From Henricia sp. BOLD:AAB3569 (lineage: Eukaryota; Echinodermata; Asteroidea; Spinulosida; Echinasteridae), in contig JBBELK010000525.1 of NCBI GenBank assembly GCA_037783545.1, positions 248,001 to 312,000 of the forward strand: 64,000 nucleotides of DNA. The letters run 5' to 3'. The position numbers were made by a program, and so were the translations under genes. The first letter of the stretch is position 1; the number at the start of each line of letters is the position of its first letter. Positions 11,861-60,735 of the stretch are shown here, piece after piece. The notes beneath the pieces were generated by a model. It searched no databases, was not told the origin of the DNA, and was given only the letters and a program-made list of their open reading frames with translations.

Positions 11861-12754
11861 CTATAGCTTGCACAAGGCAACAGCAGCAGCAGTGTTGATA
11901 ACAAGTGCCTCTGGTGAACTCTCAGAACAGAGTGTCATTCTACCCAAATCTTCGGGTGAACGCTCCTTCAAAAAGACTGATAATTCTACATTACAACCGT
12001 TAATGAATTGTTCTCTCAAAACCAAATTCTTCAAGTCTTCATAGGTCAACTCTATTCTAGCCAAATCTATCCATCTATCAAAGTCATTCTCTAAGCGAAC
12101 TGCGAACTGCATTGGACTTTCATCTTTATCCGGTTTAGCAGTTCGGAACTTAGTGCGAAACCCATCTTCAGTCAAATTATATTGCTTGAATAAGGCCGTC
12201 TTAAGTGTATCATAGTCATCAACAAGCTCTTTTGGTACTCTTGTGGACACGTACAAAGCTTTACCTGTGAGGAGTGCGCATAAGTTAATGGCCCATGTTT
12301 GAGCTGGCCATCCCTGACTGATTGCATAACGCTCAAATCTCTGCAAATACGAGTCTAGGTCATCCTTGCCATCTTGAAATACAGGCAGTTTAGGCATTCT
12401 GACCTTGGTTACGAGTCCCATAGGCTTGACTTCCTTAGCCGTTTTACCTTCAGCCTCACTAACCTGGAGTCGTAACTCTAACACTTCTACCTCTTGCTTT
12501 TTCAAAGCCCTAAGCTCTGCTCTCTCTTCCTTTGCCATCATTTCTCTCTCTCTCATGAACTCAACCAACTCTTTGCCCTCCAAACCAATCTCTTTACCAA
12601 CCTCGACCCACTTCTCCATGATCACTTCCTGCACTTGACAACCAACTTCTGCAAGCAACACAGTGAGAAACACAACCACCAGTGCAGTAAGTAACACGCT
12701 AGGCAGCGGACGCAGCAAGGGCGATGCTGGTGAACTGGTTCCTGATGACGGCAT
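11861..12754 (-). CDS. gag: retrotransposon Gag-like protein (Ty3/gypsy, SCAN-related type)
   Basis: An open frame of about 297 codons if it starts at the methionine at 12754 (MPSSGTSS); an in-frame upstream methionine at 12814 gives 317. A charged helical stretch (EKWVEVGKEIGLEGKELVEF, MAKEERAELRALKK) is followed by a capsid-like domain with LPVFQDGKDDLDSYLQRFER, LTGKALYVS and DYDTLKTALFKQYNLTEDGF. This resembles the Gag of Gmr1-like gypsy elements, the family thought to have given rise to the vertebrate SCAN domain. No zinc knuckle is visible before the stop. It would assemble the retroelement particle if functional. A primer-binding site lies just upstream at 12875-12892. Confidence 0.8.
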   Translation of the reverse strand: MPSSGTSSPASPLLRPLPSVLLTALVVVFLTVLLAEVGCQVQEVIMEKWVEVGKEIGLEGKELVEFMREREMMAKEERAELRALKKQEVEVLELRLQVSEAEGKTAKEVKPMGLVTKVRMPKLPVFQDGKDDLDSYLQRFERYAISQGWPAQTWAINLCALLTGKALYVSTRVPKELVDDYDTLKTALFKQYNLTEDGFRTKFRTAKPDKDESPMQFAVRLENDFDRWIDLARIELTYEDLKNLVLREQFINGCNVELSVFLKERSPEDLGRMTLCSESSPEALVINTAAAVALCKL

Positions 12755-12874
12755 GAATCTGTACTGATAAATAATCTCAAACAGAAAAATTAATAAGCTC
12801 CCCCCGTGCCTCAAATATTATACAATGTATTTATCTAGGCTGACAACAGGGTTTTTTTTTTCCTTGCGAGAGGT

Positions 12875-12892
12875 CTCCCGCACAAGCCCCCA
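12875..12892 (-). promoter_or_regulatory. tRNA-Pro-like primer-binding site
   Basis: Read on the minus strand, TGGGGGCTTGTGCGGGAG matches the tRNA-Pro primer-binding sequence used by many retroelements at 15 of 18 positions. It lies about 120 bp upstream of the Gag start, the expected side and spacing. Upstream of it, where the end of an LTR is expected, there is integrase-coding sequence instead, so the element is rearranged. Confidence 0.6.
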
Positions 12893-12893
12893 T

Positions 12894-13046
12894 AAATGTC
12901 ACGAAGTGGTACAGCTTCAGGGTATCGGGTGGCGTAGTCAACAACTGTTAATACGAACCTATTACCCCTATCCGTAGCTGGATGGATTGGACCAACAATG
13001 TCCACAGCGATCCGCTGGAACGGTGCATCTATCAGTGGCATTCTTC
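12894..13046 (-). repeat. left arm of a 153 bp perfect inverted repeat in integrase
   Basis: Runs from AAATGTCACGAAGTGG to CATTCTTC and is the exact reverse complement of 13994-14146. It covers the first integrase catalytic aspartate region. Confidence 0.85.
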
Positions 13047-13990
13047 CAAGTGGTAGTTTAGAAACTTTTCCTTTCGGACAAGTGCGTTGGCAGATGTCAC
13101 ATGACTTGACAAAACGCCGTATGGAAGCATGGATACCTGGCCAAAAGAAGTTGGTAGTTACCCTGTCGCAAGTCTTCTGCGTTCCAAGGTGCCCTCCAAA
13201 GAGAGACTCGTGTGCTAGTTTCAGGACCTGGACCCTGTATGTTGTAGGTACCACTACCTGCAAAAATACATTATTATTGTCAACAGCCGGTGACTGAAAC
13301 TGGCGGTACAAAATACCCTTTCGGATTAGGAACTGGGTTGAATGGCCATTTTGACCAATTTTCACTTCACTATCCTTAGCCAATTCTCTACATCGATGCA
13401 ATGTGGGGTCAGACTCCTGTGCAATTTTAAGGTCCTCTGCAGTGATATCATCTGAAATGCAGCTTGGAACTTTCAAAGACTTCACAGGTTTTTTCTCCGC
13501 AGCCCTTTGAGCTCTCGTCTGAACAGCTAACACAAGGTCAGAACTAGTACACTGTTCAGGGTGCCAATTTGGGTCAGGATCGTTAGGATCCCGAATTCCC
13601 GGAACATTACCTAAAATAACATCATACACAGGCTGTTTCATACAGATGGCCTCAACTTCGCCACGATAGAAGGGAGTGTCAATACAGATCTTTGCTACCG
13701 GAGATTTCCTAATTGTTCCATCTATCAACACACATGCTCTTTGCTCACCTGTGAATTGGTTGTCCGAAACTAGGCTCTGTCGTACGACGACGCCACTGCA
13801 ACCACTGTCCCTTAGCACGGATACTGGCTGTATACCGACTCGCCCTTCTTTCACTGGCATACCAGTGTGATGCTCTCGGCAGACCGCACTCATGATGGGA
13901 AGTTGGTGTCCACATTTTAGGGTGACGTGGTCATCTTCCCTACAACAATTACTTAGAGAGGGGAGAGCATGTGAAACCATAGATGGAACA
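12894..13990 (-). pseudogene. pol: retrotransposon protease-integrase fragment (Ty3/gypsy)
   Basis: The minus-strand frame encodes an aspartic protease segment with the active-site motif LRDSGCSGVVV. A linker follows, then an integrase zinc-binding region (HESLFGGHLGTQKT with CDICQRTC). The start of the integrase catalytic core has VDIVGPIHPATDRGN and DYATRYPEAVPL. Only about 150 residues separate protease from integrase, with no reverse transcriptase between them, as in Gmr1-like elements where integrase precedes reverse transcriptase. The frame ends soon after VPLRD at a rearrangement junction, losing the rest of the core. Its upstream end reads into an antisense copy of its own integrase, so the first ~26 codons of the open frame are artefactual. 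Confidence 0.8.
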
Positions 13991-13993
13991 ATA

Positions 13994-14146
13994 GAAGAAT
14001 GCCACTGATAGATGCACCGTTCCAGCGGATCGCTGTGGACATTGTTGGTCCAATCCATCCAGCTACGGATAGGGGTAATAGGTTCGTATTAACAGTTGTT
14101 GACTACGCCACCCGATACCCTGAAGCTGTACCACTTCGTGACATTT
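13994..14146 (+). repeat. right arm of the 153 bp inverted repeat (integrase fragment on + strand)
   Basis: Starts GAAGAATGCCACTGATAG and ends CTTCGTGACATTT. On the + strand it encodes the same VDIVGPIHP...YPEAVPLRD segment as the minus strand at 12894-13046. Beyond the arm the frame continues briefly (ISIPRK) and stops. This indicates a second, inverted retroelement fragment. Confidence 0.85.
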
Positions 14147-20440: not shown

Positions 20441-20586
20441 GAATGCGTCCTCTACATTATGCAGCCTGGCAGGGCAAGGTGCAACCAGTCAATCTGCTGG
20501 TCAAGTTTGGCTCTGCTCCTAATGAGGGCTCCCAAGATGGTGAAACACCCCTGCATCTGGCCTCCCAGTATGGCAGTCATTTGGTG
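20441..20586 (+). CDS. caskin: caskin-like exon: ankyrin repeats 3-4
   Basis: Coding exon after the acceptor TTTAATGCAG and before the donor GTG|GTGAGT. Its first two bases complete the glycine codon split from exon 8528-8628, giving the junction [15 protein letters not shown]. This exon therefore opens with an almost textbook ankyrin repeat. A second repeat starts at [16 protein letters not shown], and the exon ends in phase 0. The similarity to the corresponding segment of caskins ([12 protein letters not shown]) is the strongest family-specific signature in the window. The 11.8 kb intron before it contains a 5.5 kb transposon composite. Confidence 0.9.
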
Positions 20587-20650
20587 GTGAGTAGATGGCT
20601 AGTGTGTCACTCCTCCCGCTCCTCCTGCTCCCCCTCCCCCCCAACCCGAA

Positions 20651-20906
20651 TGTGTCGTAACTGGGACGGACACTCGTGTTACATTTTAGGCTGTCCCGGT
20701 TACGAGCGTATATTGGAAATTTGTACACAGGGATTTTAGAAAGGCATGTTGTCACACTACATGTATTTGTAACCCTTTTTGGGCCTAAGTTATCTCTTCA
20801 GAACAACTGAAACTTATTTCTTTAATTTTGATACCAGACAAAGAGTATTTTCTGGAAAATATGGTCCGTGTTGCCAAAATGCCCCCTTTACCGTGGAAAG
20901 ACTCGT
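20651..20906 (+). mobile_element. palindromic family A element, right half only (copy 2)
   Basis: Begins at the central loop (GTAACTGGGACGGACACT) and continues through CCCGGTTACGAGCGTATATT to the terminal AATGCCCCCTTTACCGTGG. The left arm is missing. It lies only about 65 bp after the donor of exon 20441-20586. Confidence 0.8.
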
Positions 20907-21565
20907 GTACTAAAATTATTCTGATTTCGTCACAAGTACGTGTGGATCAGGTTGTACCACCTTTCATTCAATCGATTTCCAGCGAAACCTCTGACTCATA
21001 GTTTGGCACAAGGCAAAATGCCATAAGTTTACCATTTAATAAGAAATCGCAACAGGTGTAAGATTTACAAGGCATGAATGACCCAATTCAATTTAAAAAC
21101 CCAAGTGGGGATTGTGCTTGAAAGTTATATTTATCGTTTTGGGTTTACCTCCTGTAGCCAGACAGTGAGAATTTGTTAATACGCCACCTGTTGGGCTGTC
21201 TTGTGTCATGACCTCCAAAAGTCTTGGAGGGGTCAAAAAAGAAATACCTCAGTTTCAGCACATTGTACATGCCTGCACCCTTATGAAAACTCTGAACCCA
21301 CTGTGTGGCAGGTGTAACCAAAATCCAAAGAAAAGAAAAACAATACATTTATAATTTAGTACAGAAACAATTTCATTTTCAAATTCTACTGGTTGAACTT
21401 GGACCATTGCTTTCAGTTTGATCAAGTACCTTGGGTTTTTAGTAAATACATTTTATGGCTTTGGGCTTGGCATTGCAAAAGTGATGATACACTGTACATG
21501 TATGTAATTGTTGTTCTATTGTTTTGCCATAGTTTACATACTCAGGTTTCATAACGAAAACCTGA
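20907..21565. other. intron sequence, nothing recognised
   Basis: No repeat or exon signal identified. Confidence 0.45.
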
Positions 21566-22509
21566 GTGAGTATACCACTATGCCTGATAACTCAGCTGGT
21601 AGATTATCTGCCCAGTGTGTCAAAGGTGTTTGGGGAAAACCCGAGGGAGTAGGCCTATACCACTGTGCTCGTAGCTCAGCTGGCAGAGCATCTGCCCGGT
21701 GTGTCAGACGTCTTGGGGGAACCTGAGGGAGTATACCACTGTGCATCATAGCTCAGCTGGTAGAGCATCTGCCTGGTGATTCAGAGGTCTTGGGGAAAAC
21801 CTGAGGGAGTATACCACTGTGCCTTATAGCTCAACTGGTAGATTATCTGCCCAGTGTATGTGTCAAAGGTGTTTGGTGGAAAACCCGAGGGAGTAGGCTT
21901 ATACCACTGTGCTCGTAGCTCAGCTGGCAGAGCATCTGCCCAGTGTGTCAGAGGTCTTAGGGGAACCTGAGGGAGTATACCACTGTGCATCATAGCTCAG
22001 CTGGTAGAGCATCTGCCCTGTGATTCAGAGGTCTTGGGGAAAACCTGAGGGAGAGTATACCACTGTGCATCATAACTCAGCTGGTACATGTGTTGAGCAT
22101 CTGCGTGGTGAGTCAGAGGTCTTAGGTGAAACCTGAGGGATATACATGTATGCCGCTGTGCCTCATACTCATAGCTCAGCTGGTACATGTAGAGCATCTG
22201 CCTAGTGTGTCAGAGGTCTTGGGGAAAACCTGAAGGAGCATACCACTGTGCCTCAAAGCTCTGGTAGAGCATCTGCCGGGTGTGTCATAGGTCTTGGGGA
22301 AAACCCCAGTGAGGGAGTACATGCATACCACTGTGCCTTATGGCTCAGCTGGTAGAGCATCTGCCTGGTGTGTTGGAGGTCTTGGGGAAAACCTGAGAGA
22401 GTAGGCTATACCACTGTACATCATAGCTCAGCTGATATATCCCAGATTGTTGGAGGTCTCAGGTTCAAATCCTGATGTGGACCATATGATTTTTCTCTCA
22501 TCTCATACT
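21566..22509 (+). repeat. tRNA-derived tandem array 1 (about 11 units of ~80 bp)
   Basis: Each unit begins with a tRNA-like A-box half (TAGCTCAGCTGGTAGAGCAT), then CTGCC, GAGGTCTTGGGGAAAACC and GAGGGAGTATACCACTGTG. Only the last unit (from about 22418) has a B-box (GGTTCAAATCC), followed by a tail including CATATGATTTTTCTCTCATC. Units 1-3 and 4-6 repeat as a block of about 240 bp. The array abuts the acceptor of exon 22512-22732. Confidence 0.9.
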
Positions 22510-22511
22510 AG
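22483..22511 (+). promoter_or_regulatory. 3' splice site embedded in a repeat tail
   Basis: CATATGATTTTTCTCTCATC, the pyrimidine tract, is identical to the tail of array 2 (reverse complement at 38472-38491). The acceptor AG follows nine bases later. The tail of a mobile repeat thus supplies the pyrimidine tract of a coding exon. Confidence 0.75.
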
Positions 22512-22732
22512 GTTGAAACCCTACTGAGGTTCCAAGCCAACCCCACATTGAAGAACAAAGGTGGCAAGACAGCGTTGGACCTCGCCGCCGAGTTTGGTCG
22601 TCTTAAGGTGGTGCAGCTCCTTATGAACAGTAGTCATTCTTCAGAACTTCTAGAGATTACGTCCAGAACCAGAGTCAGCATGCACACACCGTTGCACCTG
22701 GCTGCCAAAAATGGCCACAGTGATGTTGCAAG
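22512..22732 (+). CDS. caskin: caskin-like exon: ankyrin repeats 4-6
   Basis: Coding exon of 73 codons plus two bases. The acceptor is CTCATACTAG and the donor is AG|GTAGGT. It starts in phase 0 with VETLLRFQANP, finishing the repeat begun in exon 20441-20586. It then encodes KTALDLAAEFGRLKVVQLL, an insertion-like loop (SSHSSELLEITSRTRVS), and HTPLHLAAKNGHSDVA. The loop falls where vertebrate caskins also have a longer inter-repeat segment. The acceptor is unusual: its pyrimidine tract lies in the tail of the tRNA-derived tandem array immediately upstream. Confidence 0.92.
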
Positions 22733-22764
22733 GTAGGTTTTGTTTGTGTGTGATTCCTAATAAC

Positions 22765-23253
22765 TAAACTCGTCAAAAAAATTTCGGAAAGTCAAGTTTG
22801 ACTGACGATTTCTCTCTTGTTACTAAATCATTTCCCTTGAATTTGGTATCATTGGAAAGCCCTGTTATTCCTCTTTACAGTGATGTGTAATTTGTTATGA
22901 TTAGGCAATTGGGGGATGTGCAGTATAGCGGAAAACAGGGGTGGGTGGAAAGTGAAATGACACAAAATTCACTGCTATTGTCATGCAGTGCATTCCCCTT
23001 TTGCTTGGAGGATGGGAATGTGTCAATGCACTTTTTGACAATAGCAATGCATTTTGTGACATTTCACTTTACACCTGCCCCGTATTCAGCTGTGCCGCAC
23101 ATCCCCCAATTGCTTAATCATAACAAATGACACATCATCGTAAAGAGGAATAAGTGGGCTTTCCAATGATACCAAATTCAAGGAAAATGATTTAGTAACA
23201 AGAGAGAAATCGTCAGTCAAACTTGACTTTCCGAACTTATTTTGAGGAGTTTA
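22765..23253. mobile_element. fold-back element (about 490 bp) right after exon 22512
   Basis: TAAACTCGTCAAAAAAATTT and CGGAAAGTCAAGTTTGACTG at the left are mirrored by CAGTCAAACTTGACTTTCCG and TTTTGAGGAGTTTA at the right. Pairing continues inward for over 150 bp (e.g. GGCAATTGGGGGATGTGC and GCACATCCCCCAATTGC). It lies 33 bp after the exon's donor. Confidence 0.85.
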
Positions 23254-24439
23254 GAACATTTTTATTTCCCCCTCTTTAAATACAGAGTTTTCTATCTCAA
23301 AACACTCATAAGAAAAAATTATATACTCTTGATGATCACACACTGTAGTTTGAGTACATTCTTAATACAAACTATTTTATCTTCAGCGGCGTCAAAAGTT
23401 GTCAACGTTTTCACGATTCTACAAAGCGTATGGAGTGGGGTCGAGGGCTGCGTAGGACTTTACATGCACTAGTGTTGACACTTCATGGTACAAGTAGGCC
23501 TACATGTACATGTGTAGCCCGCAAGCGAGATAACGTATAAAACTGCTCTGCATGAAGCATAATGGGATTAAATGGAGCAAAGCGCCGCTCAGTGTGTTTG
23601 TGTTTACGTACGTCAAGTTCACTGTTCCGTAGTTTATATTGCACACTTCAACTGATTTGGCTGCAGTTACATGTAGCCCCCGGTACTGGAGCCACCTCCG
23701 AAGAGTTGCTGTCAAAGTATTTTTTTCAACATTTTTTTTATGGTAGCGAAGTACCTACCGTACCACATCAAATTCATGAAGCAACACTTTACAGCATCTG
23801 CCTTTTTAAAACAATTCTTTGAACCCTTGAGCGACGTGGTTTTGTTTACATCGCTAACGGTCATCTCATATTCGGTCTATTTGACAAGGTACCGGTACAT
23901 GTACTTTAACTTGTCAAAAATAATAGTTCGGAAGTTGGGAGGCATTCTTTGAATTAATCTGCATTTTATCTGCTTTAAAATCAATGAAGCCAGCTGTGAA
24001 ACAAAATGTCCTCCCACAAGCATTCATTGTGTTATTAATAGCTGAAGTCTACGAAACAGAACAGCTAAATTTAGTGTGACATTTCCACGTGTTTTGCATA
24101 CCGGATGTTGGCTTTTCAGAGATAATTACAATATGATGCAATATACTTACAAATGGCTAATCGCCTGCATGCTTGACTGAAAAACAAATCTTAATTTGAA
24201 AGTGTTGGAAGTTGCTGGTATTCTGGCTGATATCAAGGTACATACAGTACATAGATGTACATTCCTACACTGCATGCACGTGTACATTAATACACTACAT
24301 GTATGCCATCGTGTTTCTTTAAGTATATTCAGTTTGCCTGGCAGAATGACTACATGTTAAAAGTATATGTTTTTCAAAACAAACAACATATTATACTGTA
24401 CAAGCATTTTTGTGACAGGCATGGCAAACAGATTGACAA
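23254..24439. other. intron sequence, nothing recognised
   Basis: Slightly CpG-richer around 23400-23900 but without exon or repeat evidence. Confidence 0.4.
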
Positions 24440-28490: not shown

Positions 28491-28563
28491 GCCCAGATAG
28501 CTCAGTTGGTAGAGCAATTGGCCATGTATGCCAAGGACCTGGGTTCGAATCCCAGTCGGGGCA
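28491..28563 (+). tRNA. tRNA-like sequence (tRNA-Lys-like head), probably a relic or SINE head
   Basis: 73 bases fold as a cloverleaf. The acceptor stem GCCCAGA/TCGGGGC has one mismatch, and the D arm is GCTCAGTTGGTAGAGC. The anticodon stem is TTGGC/GCCAA and the T arm CTGGGTTCGAATCCCAG is perfect. The 5' half resembles tRNA-Lys, but the 7-base anticodon loop CATGTAT has no U at position 33. An extra base precedes the anticodon stem. A working tRNA is therefore unlikely. Confidence 0.6.
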
Positions 28564-28828
28564 CTGCAATTTTCTTGTGTTTCTAAATTCATCTCCAATT
28601 GTCAATCCTATCATATCTTCGACTATGTTTTTGTGTCAATGGTTTGTGACAAAAATGTTTTGCTGGGAAGAACTGCAGCAAATCTCATCCCTAAAAGTAG
28701 TTTGTTTCTTGTATGCTTATGTTAATTTTGGAAAATGAGATGATTGTGTGTTATAAACTACATATGATTCCTACATGTACATGCACGTTAAATAAGTGTA
28801 CATGTACAGTACTTAACTTTTAATAACA

Positions 28829-31516: not shown

Positions 31517-32052
31517 TTTTCCCACTCGGCAAAATCTCGGTGGTGGCCCCGGGGCGACGGCGGGGTGAAAATAAGCCCTGATTCCCACTTGCAAGTCTCA
31601 CCCCCGCGCCACCCCTGAGATTGCTCATTCCCCGGGGCGTGTTCAACCCTGCTCAGGACCAGGGACACTTTCCCTGGGGCGAAAATAGTAGTGTGAAAAG
31701 GGGCACCGCAGTGGTGAGTTCTCACTTGTTCAAGTGAGGGACGAGATGTCGATCTCCTGGGTGAGTTCGCCCCGGGGCGAGATTCAGTGTGAATCGACGC
31801 AGGCCCCCCGGGATTGCTCATTCCCCGGGGCGTGTTCAACCCTGCTCAGGACCAGGGACACTTTCCCTGGGGCGAGAATAGTAGTGTGAAAAGCGGCACC
31901 GCAGTGGTGAGTTCTCACTTGTTCAAGTGAGGGACGAGATGTCGATCTCCGGGGTGAGTTCGCCCCGGGGCGAGATTCAGTGTGAATCGACGCAGGCCCC
32001 CCGGGGCGAACTCGCCCCGGGGATTGTGGCCCTAGTGGGAAAAGGCCTAAAG
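31517..32052. mobile_element. GCCTTTTCCCACT element with CCCCGGGGCG tiles and an internal duplication
   Basis: The ends GCCTTTTCCCACT and AGTGGGAAAAGGC are inverted. The interior repeats CCCCGGGGCGA in both orientations. A 193 bp block (from TTGCTCATTCCCCGGGGCG at 31621) is repeated almost unchanged from 31814. Confidence 0.85.
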
Positions 32053-37096: not shown

Positions 37097-37459
37097 ACAT
37101 GTATGTGCTCCAGAAAAGGCGCATCCTCTCTATGGACCCTTGCATCAAAGCCAAAATGTAGATGAAGAAATTTCATCCTTTTGAAATATATTTCCTTATC
37201 ATCCACATAAGTGGAATGGTACAAAAATGTGCACAAGTACAGTGGTTTTGGTAGACCCTACATTAAGAGGGGAAAATGTTCAGTTCTATTATTTATTTTT
37301 ATAATTAGACCAAGCCGGGCAGGGGTTACTGTTTGGGGCATATCTTAAGTGATCTCTGGGAGGGGTGGTTATTTCTCTGTCGGGCTCGCTAAGCTCACGT
37401 GATAGCCAATCCCAATCAGTGAGGAACGACTGCACTACCGTGATTTGAGACCACCAGTT
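37097..37459. other. intron sequence, nothing recognised
   Basis: No supported feature. Confidence 0.45.
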
Positions 37460-37532
37460 GGCTTCATAGCTCATACGGTAGGGCGTCTGCACGTTACGCA
37501 GAAGGTCCGCGGTTCGAATCCCGGTGAAGCCA
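37460..37532 (+). tRNA. tRNA-like sequence, probably non-functional
   Basis: 73 bases with a perfect acceptor stem GGCTTCA/TGAAGCC, D arm GCTCATACGGTAGGGC and perfect anticodon stem TCTGC/GCAGA. The T arm has two mismatches (CGCGG/CCCGG). The loop ACGTTAC would place GTT (Asn) as anticodon but has C rather than U at position 33. The B-box GGTTCGAATCC is intact. It is best read as a tRNA relic or SINE head. Confidence 0.6.
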
Positions 37533-37973
37533 AGTTGCTTTTTACTGCATCCAGATTTCCCAAACTCATATGGACATTTCTTTTACCCCGGTGGTCCCTG
37601 GGTCATAATCCCTAAAAATAATCACTTATTCATTATTTTGTTTACAAAACAGTCATTTACATTTAACTGTAACTTCACAGGTAACAGGTACTCAAATAAT
37701 TCCACGTGTATACACTGTAAGGCATTCTATTCACATGGACTATATTATTAGGTACTGATGATACCAGTAATATTTGTATCAATGTGTGATAGTTCTTGCT
37801 GTACATGTACATGTAGGTATTACAATCTCAGTACAAATGTAAGTTTTTGCCCAACATTGAAAGCAGTCATCAAGTGAACTGGCCAGTAATTGATGTGATG
37901 TTACCCACTACCAAGGGGTTAGCCCAAGTCTAAAAATAAAGAAAAGTTTCCATAATTTTTCTCTCCCCCACAG
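37533..37973. other. intron sequence before exon 37974
   Basis: Ends in a strong pyrimidine tract; nothing else is recognised. Confidence 0.5.
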
Positions 37974-38082
37974 AGTTCTCCTAGAATATGGTATTGATAT
38001 CAACCGAGAAACGCCAAACGGAACGGCTCTGCATGAGGCTGCATTAGCTGGAAAGTCAGAAGTTGTGCAACTATTGATAGCA
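37974..38082 (+). CDS. caskin: caskin-like exon: ankyrin repeats 6-7
   Basis: Coding exon after a strong acceptor (TCTCCCCCACAG), with donor GCA|GTGAGT. Its first base completes an AGA arginine codon begun at the end of exon 22512-22732. The next 36 codons read [12 protein letters not shown], then [19 protein letters not shown], which is a clean ankyrin repeat with the GTALHEAAL signature also found in caskins. The preceding intron is 15.2 kb, the longest complete one in the window. It ends in phase 0. Confidence 0.92.
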
Positions 38083-38471: not shown

Positions 38472-39390
38472 GATGAGAGAAAAATCATATGATCCTCATT
38501 GGGATTCAAACCCTGGACCTCTGACTTCCTGGGTAGATGCTCTACCAGCTGAGCTATGAGGTGCAGTGGTATATTCCCTCAGGTTTCCCCAAGATATCGG
38601 ACACCAGGCAGATGCTCTACCAGCTGAGATATGAGACACAGTGGTATACATACATGTACTCCCTCAGGTTTTCCCAAGACATCTGACACACCAGCCAGAT
38701 GCTCTACCAACTGAGCTACATGTATGAGGCACAGTGGTCTACCCCCCTCAGGTTTTCCCAAGACCTCTGACACACCAGGCAGATGCTCTACCAGCTGAGC
38801 TATGAGGCACAGTGGTATGCATGTACTCCCTAAGGTTTTCACAAGACCTCTGACACACTGGGCAGATGCTCTACCAGCCGGTCTATATGATGCACAGTGG
38901 TATATTCCCTCAGGTTTCCCCCAAGACCTCTGACACACCAGGCAGATGCTCTACCAGCCGATCTAGATGATGCACAGTGGTATATTCCCTTAGGTTTCCC
39001 CCAAGACCTCTGACACACCAGGCAGATGCTCTACCAGCCGATCTAGATGATGCACAGTGGTATATTCCCTTAGGTTTCCCCCAAGACCTCTGACACACCA
39101 GGCAGATGCTCTACCAGCCGATCTAGATGATGCACAGTGGTATATTCCCTTAGGTTTCCCCAAGACCTCTGACACACCAGGCAGATGCTCTACCAGCCAA
39201 TTTATATAATGCACAGTGGTATATTCCCTTAGGTTTTCCCCAAGACCTCTGACACACCAGGCAGATGCTCTACCAGCCGAACTATAGGAGGCACAGTGGT
39301 ATATTCCCTTAGGTTTCCCCCAAGACCTCTGAAACACCAGGCAGATGCTCTACCAGCTGAGCTATGAGGCACAGTGGTGTACTCCCTCAT
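38472..39390 (-). repeat. tRNA-derived tandem array 2 (about 11 units, minus orientation)
   Basis: Same unit as array 1, read on the minus strand (TAGCTCAGCTGGTAGAGCAT ... GGGAGTATACCACTGTG). The unit at the low-coordinate end, which is last in the minus direction, carries the B-box (GGGTTTGAATCCC) and the tail CATATGATTTTTCTCTCATC. Three consecutive 80-bp units at about 38930-39165 look identical. Confidence 0.9.
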
Positions 39391-60254: not shown

Positions 60255-60735
60255 GAGTGCCTCATAGCTCAGCCAGTAGAGCATCTGCCTAGTGTGTCAG
60301 AGGTCTTGGGGGGAACTCAAGGGAGTATACCACTGTGCTTCATAGCTCAGCTGGTAGAGCATCTGCCCAGAGTGTCAGAGGTCTTTGGGAAAACCTGAGG
60401 GAGTATACCACTGTGCCTCATACCTCAGCTGGTAGAGCATCTGCCTAGTGTGTCAGAGGTCTTGGGTAAAACTTGAGGGAGTATACCACTGTGGTTCATA
60501 GCTCAGCTGGTGGAGCATCTGCCTGTTGAGTCGGACGTCTTGGGGAAAAACCTGAGGGAGTATACCATTGTCTCATAGCTCAGCTGGTAAAGCATCTGCC
60601 CGGAGTGTCAGAGGTCTTGGGGAAAACCTGAGGGAGTATACCACTGCCTCATAGCTCAGCTGGTAGAACATCTGCCTAGTGTGTCAGAGGACACGGGTTC
60701 AAATCCTGATGAGGACCATGTGATTTTAATGAGGC
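60255..60735 (+). repeat. tRNA-derived tandem array 3 (about 6 units)
   Basis: Same unit and same orientation rule as arrays 1 and 2. The last unit (from about 60650) has the B-box GGGTTCAAATCC and a tail GAGGACCATGTGATTTTA; earlier units lack the B-box. Confidence 0.9.

Follow-up and report, generated by a model that had tools for sequence, protein, structure and literature searches.

How might a dispersed repeat come to provide the splice-site context of a conserved coding exon? The question is raised by a 64-kb stretch of the Henricia sp. genome (the whole of it hereafter called the window), in which a coding exon at 22512-22732 (+) is closely preceded by the 20-mer CATATGATTTTTCTCTCATC. 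The exon has an open frame and a GTAGGT donor. It follows an intron of 1,925 bases (20587-22511, +) and the coding exon 20441-20586 (+), whose protein sequence ends in ...SHLV, whose donor is GTGAGT at 20587, and which differs at 2 of 146 positions from a second gene copy on contig C1102. The next exon, at 37974-38082 (+), has an acceptor of its own, CATAATTTTTCTCTCCCCCACAG, which is similar to the repeat tail described below. All three exons encode ankyrin repeats (Ank Pfam hits). The best PDB matches of the ankyrin part alone are ankyrins, and those of the SH3 exon near 46.1 kb are Caskin-2 (E 6e-4) and Caskin-1 (E 8e-3). The order by which a caskin is recognized, ankyrin repeats and then a caskin-type SH3 domain, is present, and judged from its predicted protein the host gene is caskin-like. 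The caskin tail domain PF16632 had no match in the assembly; the same search matched none of 14 control genomes.

Between the 20-mer and the exon lie nine bases, TCATACTAG, with an AG at 22510-22511 (+) inside an in-frame TAG; an acceptor at just this spacing had been predicted in the preliminary description, and both the spacing and the AG are found in the sequence. The upstream exon ends in phase 0 (GTG|GTGAGT), exon 22512 opens with GTT GAA, and the predicted junction 20586/22512 reads SHLV|VETLLRFQ, gapless in the ankyrin frame. Because the TAG stop directly abuts exon 22512, longer intron retention would stop translation in that frame, which rules out acceptors upstream of 22511. The putative site has the features of a U2-type 3′ splice site, namely TAG|G, a polypyrimidine tract (16/20 pyrimidines at -23 to -4), and an AG-free zone, the nearest upstream AG being 49 bases away. 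Matches to yUnAy in the window intron end occur at -37, -12, and -7 only. The best of them, CTGAT at -37, is deleted in C1102, whereas both gene copies share TATGATT, which lies in the tail ~23 bases before the exon; we infer that an A in TATGATT is the candidate branch point. The placement of the putative acceptor at 22511/22512 rests on frame, homology, and conservation in the second gene copy.

The 20-mer occurs exactly at 22483-22502 (+) and again at 38472-38491 (-), where, as had been reported, it ends a separate and independent array (~38472-39389); 100 shuffles gave no match with up to three mismatches allowed. We searched the assembly (740.7 Mb, 2,104 contigs) and found 1,828 + 1,850 = 3,678 copies of CATATGATTTTTCTCTCATC with at most two mismatches, against 0 + 0 for a reversed control pattern, and 1,431 + 1,479 exact copies of the core GATTTTTCTCTCATC. 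This copy number rules out an ancestral-intron origin of the 20-mer, and its earlier assignment to the repeat stands. We read 70 copies around the exact 20-mer, 68 from the assembly and 2 from the window. A typical copy has a tRNA-like head, ending in GGTTCGAATCCCGATAAGGCC, upstream of the tail. Downstream of the 20-mer, copies commonly run on as CCA(A/T)GTTTGGTTGTTTCATTTC and diverge at different points; homology extends 8 or more bases beyond the 20-mer in 65/70 copies, window included (BLAST). An A-box-like core could be aligned in 35/70. Rfam gave three tRNA hits of 32-34 bits (gathering threshold 29) in two of the six family loci given. One of these hits (L059, 542-609) is a head joined to the tail and the other two are neighbouring inverted heads; the window arrays gave no tRNA hit for the repeat itself. 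This organization identifies CATATGATTTTTCTCTCATC as the 3′ tail of a dispersed repeat derived from a tRNA. With its tRNA-like head and high-copy dispersal (1,828 + 1,850 tails), the family is filed, on sequence features, as a tRNA-derived SINE that in places forms tandem arrays of ~78-base units.

In the host intron, the array with its terminal unit spans 21545-22511 (+; ~ten copies, TRF periods of ~77-88 bases) and forms the 3′ half of the intron (967/1,925 bases); family homology begins at GGTTTCATAACG. The terminal tRNA-derived unit occupies 22418-22482 (+), with a B-box-like GGTTCAAATCC at 22462-22472, and is followed by the tail at 22483-22502 (+). As in the other two arrays of the window, the tail is kept by the last unit alone. 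The last intron bases, to at least 22502, are repeat tail, and the AG-free, pyrimidine-rich stretch ending in TAG is kept in both gene copies. The repeat appears to supply the pyrimidine tract of the putative acceptor of exon 22512 and probably its branch region. The earlier proposal that a tRNA-derived repeat serves as the tract of an ancestral coding exon is supported.

Other copies of the family vary in structure. The third array of the window (~60257-60712) has a related tail with an internal deletion (CATGTGATTTTAATGAGG). Two tail copies on C24 (L024, L025) lack the tRNA head and have an inverted tail copy upstream, which makes a foldback. Tails ending in CATCCCATGCTAGGT or CATCCATTGCTAGGT recur on C244 (L112, C244:279100-282100) and also on C637 and C683, spaced ~1-9 kb among the matches listed; the L112 stretch on C244 holds the repeat array and a GC-rich 15-base minisatellite.

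The caskin-like exons also match contig C1102; the 30 kb of C1102 that were compared are colinear with the window. A rare tail variant is present at both C525:654222 and C1102:650371, so colinearity may reach ~400 kb. Most likely C1102 represents the other haplotype; it keeps the array, the tail, and the acceptor. In its terminal unit 12 bases are missing and CTCTCATC has become CTCACATC (one T to A change), with CATCTCATACTAG unchanged. The array is strongly divergent between the two copies, with 643 positions the same, 47 different, and 309 gapped; the rest of the intron is less so, with 904, 17, and 45, respectively. Exon 22512-22732 differs at 5/221 positions, 4 of the 5 differences being silent. 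On this comparison the insertion is older than the split of the window and C1102 copies, and in both of them the exon appears to be under constraint. An inverted-repeat element at 22764-23254 (177-base arms, 91% complementary), which begins 31 bases beyond the donor of exon 22512-22732, was not found in the C1102 gene copy and is probably haplotype-specific.

We consider it likely, from the sequence evidence, that a tRNA-derived SINE landed at the far 3′ end of this intron of the caskin-like gene and that the following coding exon came to rely on the sense-strand tail of the element for its 3′ splice site context. The spliceosome would then use TTTTTCTCTC as polypyrimidine tract and the A in TATGATT, ~23 bases before the exon, as branch point, and splicing would join 20586 to 22512. 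The tail (TATGAT, then TTTTTCTCTC) would be a ready-made acceptor context, so that sense insertions just before an AG could be tolerated and could later become necessary; this would also be a reason for their recurrence.

The arrangement had been described as unusual, and in this respect the description needs revising. A one-off is not supported: in the same genome the tail precedes the acceptors of ten additional exons or exon candidates. With the window included, we count eleven distinct loci with the tail before a putative acceptor, eight with an assigned protein family (caskin, VPS35, RUVBL2, RBPJ, kinase, oxidoreductase, PHR, and CUB, the last below threshold) and three recognized by reading frame only (C131, the coiled-coil exon of C184/C1791, and C337/C359). 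The VPS35 exon, present on C151 (L093) and C168 (L098), has 30/32 residues identical to a PDB chain (E 1e-13). The RUVBL2 exon (L135) matches TIP49_C (1.3e-16) and a PDB entry (2e-18), and the RBPJ exon (L136) matches BTD (3.9e-23), with 45/47 residues identical to a PDB chain. Further matches identify an F420_oxidored-like exon (L138, 1.2e-6), a tyrosine-kinase-like catalytic loop (L146, 2.7e-11), a PHR exon (L173, 2.5e-14), and a CUB exon on C453 (L117, E 7.5e-4, 20.2 bits against a cut-off of 21.4); the tails of the last two have no tRNA head. Turning to the loci read by frame, the exon on C131 (L082) had no Pfam hit, two of three neighbouring frames scoring for Calx-beta and one for Cadherin_3; when it was joined to a neighbour as a query, the match lay in the neighbour only and below the cut-off. 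The coiled-coil exon on C184 (L103) has a second copy on C1791 (L174), and the candidate exon on C337 (L115) recurs on C359, where exon and tail are both identical. Neither of these two exons matched a family or structure, each giving one sub-threshold Pfam hit.

The RBPJ and RUVBL2 exons each occur once in the assembly, and so have no alternative copy without the tail. In the two VPS35 copies the tail and intron end are nearly identical and the sequence farther upstream is strongly different, the pattern that constraint on a splice site derived from a repeat would produce. On C1791 the repeat consensus runs unbroken through CCATGTTTGGTTGTTTCAT and is followed by AG|GAAAAG. An alignment of 14 junction rows placed the end of repeat homology at -4 to +5 of the exon start in 11 rows, or 8 of the 11 loci, although these ends are soft, as alignments can be extended by chance where the native intron end is T-rich; homology ends at -6 (CUB), -14 (PHR), and -13 (C337) in the remaining loci. 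Where the core and the exon are at least 18 bases apart, part of the tract may be native. At the RBPJ, kinase, and oxidoreductase loci, an AG from the repeat's CCAAG lies 15-19 bases before the exon and could compete with the acceptor. Pyrimidine counts at the junctions range from 12 to 18 of 20, with 12/20 in the kinase tract, and on paper the recurrent acceptor sites are not all strong. The kinase insertion, in which 63/65 aligned positions match the repeat, is apparently young. An array is not needed: at four other exon loci (C131; C151 and C168, VPS35; C184; C337) the 479-600 bases upstream hold no A-box core or one.

The best reading of these sequences is a SINE family whose tail would work as a portable 3′ splice site and stands where introns of several conserved genes end. 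We lean slightly towards a broader claim, in which the SINE acts as a mobile 3′ splice site that has repeatedly replaced the native branch point and tract where introns of conserved genes end (caskin, VPS35, RUVBL2, RBPJ, and others, with single-copy genes among them), probably at dozens of places genome-wide, such that part of constitutive splicing would run on repeat sequence.

Many of the recurrent loci were chosen for an acceptor-like look. A pattern search for the core followed by an acceptor within 3-22 bases gave 133 matches for YAGGT (many in tandem arrays), 53 for YAGAT, 37 for YAGGC, and 35 for YAGGA. Exon candidates were found at 2 of the 20 YAGGT places read (L115, L117) and exons at 4 of 20 YAGAT/YAGGC places picked for their acceptor-like look (L135, L136, L138, L146); of the YAGGA places, 31 were new to the set, of which 20 were read and 2 had exons (L173, L174). 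Frames at L116, L121-L123, L153, L154, L163, and L168, and six frames of the contig-order sample described next, matched no family.

The contig-order sample comprised 86 of the first 91 places listed for the 20-mer; two places were dropped as the same place as L021, and C126, C176, and C185 lie outside the sample. We screened by eye for a reading frame after an AG, with Pfam for named frames; 6-7 pairs of entries are near-identical. Screened separately, C126 (L006) and C185 (L005) had no exon within 45 bases. In the sample, the tail lies at most 24 bases from an exon start in 4/86 entries, which represent three distinct loci (L082, L093/L098, L103), and 82/86 are not at an acceptor. Random sense insertion, with 150,000-400,000 acceptors assumed, predicts 0.26-0.68 loci within 30 bases and a probability of 0.002-0.03 for three or more. 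This excess over chance is weakened because the sample also has exons 44 to ~130 bases after the tail, at a similar density per base. They include L069 and L058, without a family, and exons resembling eIF3h (L088, C141; 1.7e-13), ferrochelatase (L034, C45; 3e-8), and Churchill (L084, C134; 4.3e-7), the tail lying ~80-130 bases upstream of these last three. All five were left out of the acceptor loci, as the exon is at least 44 bases off and the near tract is not repeat tail. The sample speaks for an absence of depletion near exons, not for targeting or a special peak at acceptors. At L070 (C103:668889) the family lies antisense, with its 3′ end ~6 bases after the apparent donor of a CDC27 exon (69 residues, PDB E 1.6e-30).

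These data bear on several alternatives. One is that the intron-end insertions were targeted by the integration machinery of a partner LINE rather than being random and filtered by selection. Repeat homology that ends, by local alignment, within -4 to +5 of the exon start at 8/11 distinct loci would fit targeting, but the chance lengthening of alignments in T-rich intron ends, the 82/86 contig-order entries away from acceptors, and the equal density of exons 44 to ~130 bases off all speak against it, and we give it little credence. It is also very improbable that the repeat is a bystander, with exon 22512-22732 skipped or spliced at a downstream AG such as CTACTGAG. The exon is conserved, with mostly silent changes in both copies, no gap is needed to fit its start into the ankyrin frame, and use of the downstream AG would remove six residues. 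If the repeat does serve the acceptor, it could have arrived by insertion at the intron end or the acceptor could have drifted into it, and both routes had been offered. Insertion fits better and drift less well, because repeat homology reaches the end of this intron and comes close to the exon start at 8/11 loci, and because a possible target-site duplicate, though not conclusive, flanks the array.

Under insertion, the acceptor AG itself has two candidate sources. We find it plausible, if somewhat short of probable, that the AG is repeat-derived, the tail having run on as CCATGTTTGGTTG and mutated to TCATACTAG|GTTG; the site before insertion would then be without CATACTAG. TCATACTAGGTTG and CCATGTTTGGTTG agree at 9/13 positions, a match as good as that of 161/63,987 window 13-mers, and the tandem family on C244/C637/C683 has CCATGCTAGGT in the same place. 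Against this, 5/9 intronic bases match, the other four matches being exon bases, and C1102 has GTGG where the window exon opens with GTTG. A dispersed CTAGGT subfamily was considered as the source and set aside: among the 100 matches listed, CATGCTAGGT/CATTGCTAGGT occur only on C244, C637, and C683, and so this subfamily does not settle the origin of the AG. It is possible, and we hold this with more doubt, that AG|GTT is instead the original acceptor, the 3′ copy of a CATACT(C)AGGTT target-site duplication, and that the repeat gave the tract and branch region alone. The 5′ copy at 21537-21548 would be a relict acceptor, in parallel with the canine merle SINE at the PMEL intron 10/exon 11 boundary, where a 15-base target duplication holds the original acceptor and poly(T) is the tract (PMC7349775). 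The candidate copies are CATACTCAGGTT (21537-21548, +), which reads CATACTCGGG in C1102, and CATACTAGGTT, which crosses the acceptor (22504-22514, +) and may alternatively be diverged repeat sequence (consensus CATGTTTGGTT). CATACTCAGGTT and CATACT-AGGTT agree in 11/12 columns, a score equalled by 80, 94, and 96 per 20,000 random pairs under three nulls and reached by 0/68 other copies' 5′ flanks. Within the family, 6/58 own flank pairs score at least 8, compared to 2.0% of swapped pairs. In C1102 the 5′ copy has lost its AG and lacks the pyrimidine-rich piece of 22 bases that precedes it in the window, changes that would suit a relict acceptor out of use. The match requires a one-base gap, however, an equal score occurs in 2/69 other copies' 3′ flanks, and a repeat end one base after the 20-mer would be atypical given the 65/70 copies that extend at least 8 bases past it by BLAST.

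Insertion of a SINE whose tail became acceptor context can be compared with several known systems. Introner elements are mobile DNA with splice signals that creates new introns; in the present case the repeat follows 958 bases of other intron sequence and makes up 967/1,925 bases rather than the whole intron. The exonization of transposable elements (TEs; Alu and others) makes new exons from TE sequence, mostly alternative ones, and was reported as anecdotal in the invertebrates studied (PMC2911107). The likeness is that repeat sequence gives splice acceptor context; the difference is that here the exon is ancestral and only the acceptor context is repeat. TE sequence in the mRNA, the mark of exonization, is not predicted, as the exon is ankyrin-repeat coding and the tail intronic. 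In OGDH reporters, SINEs can bring branch-point-like motifs (PMC7969005), although these are experimental insertions that compete with distant branch points and not natural replacement of a 3′ splice site. The nearest known case is the canine merle SINE in PMEL, which is likewise tRNA-derived, lies at an intron/exon boundary, and provides a pyrimidine stretch as polypyrimidine tract; it is antisense, its tract comes from the poly(A) tail, and it causes mis-splicing and a mutant phenotype (PMC7349775). The Henricia repeat, in contrast, is in sense orientation, draws its putative tract from the tail proper, is present in both gene copies, and stands before several conserved genes. Among the matches listed in the open-access literature, none described ancestral constitutive exons that have a SINE tail for their tract.

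In mammals, SINEs are depleted within 100 bp of exons, in the zone where the branch point and tract sit, and TEs less than 20 bp from exons favour the donor side (PMC3088655). Those underrepresentation zones likewise concern TEs within ~100 bases of splice sites, but here the tail lies directly before putative acceptors at eleven loci. If our reading is true, a mobile element can carry usable acceptor context and intron ends are replaceable parts. The loci would then be natural replicates, one of them (the kinase exon) apparently young, in which the turnover of 3′ splice sites could be studied, and both insertion-bearing and insertion-free alleles are predicted.

The remainder of the window holds further features. 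Frames at 11861-14088 (-) with Integrase_H2C2 (5.9e-20) and a sub-threshold SCAN match (26.9 bits, cut-off 27) are retroelement remains, and a 193-base tandem duplication with 97% matches lies at 31612-32005. A tRNA-Thr(TGT) is predicted at 28491-28564 and a tRNA-Asn(GTT) at 37459-37533.
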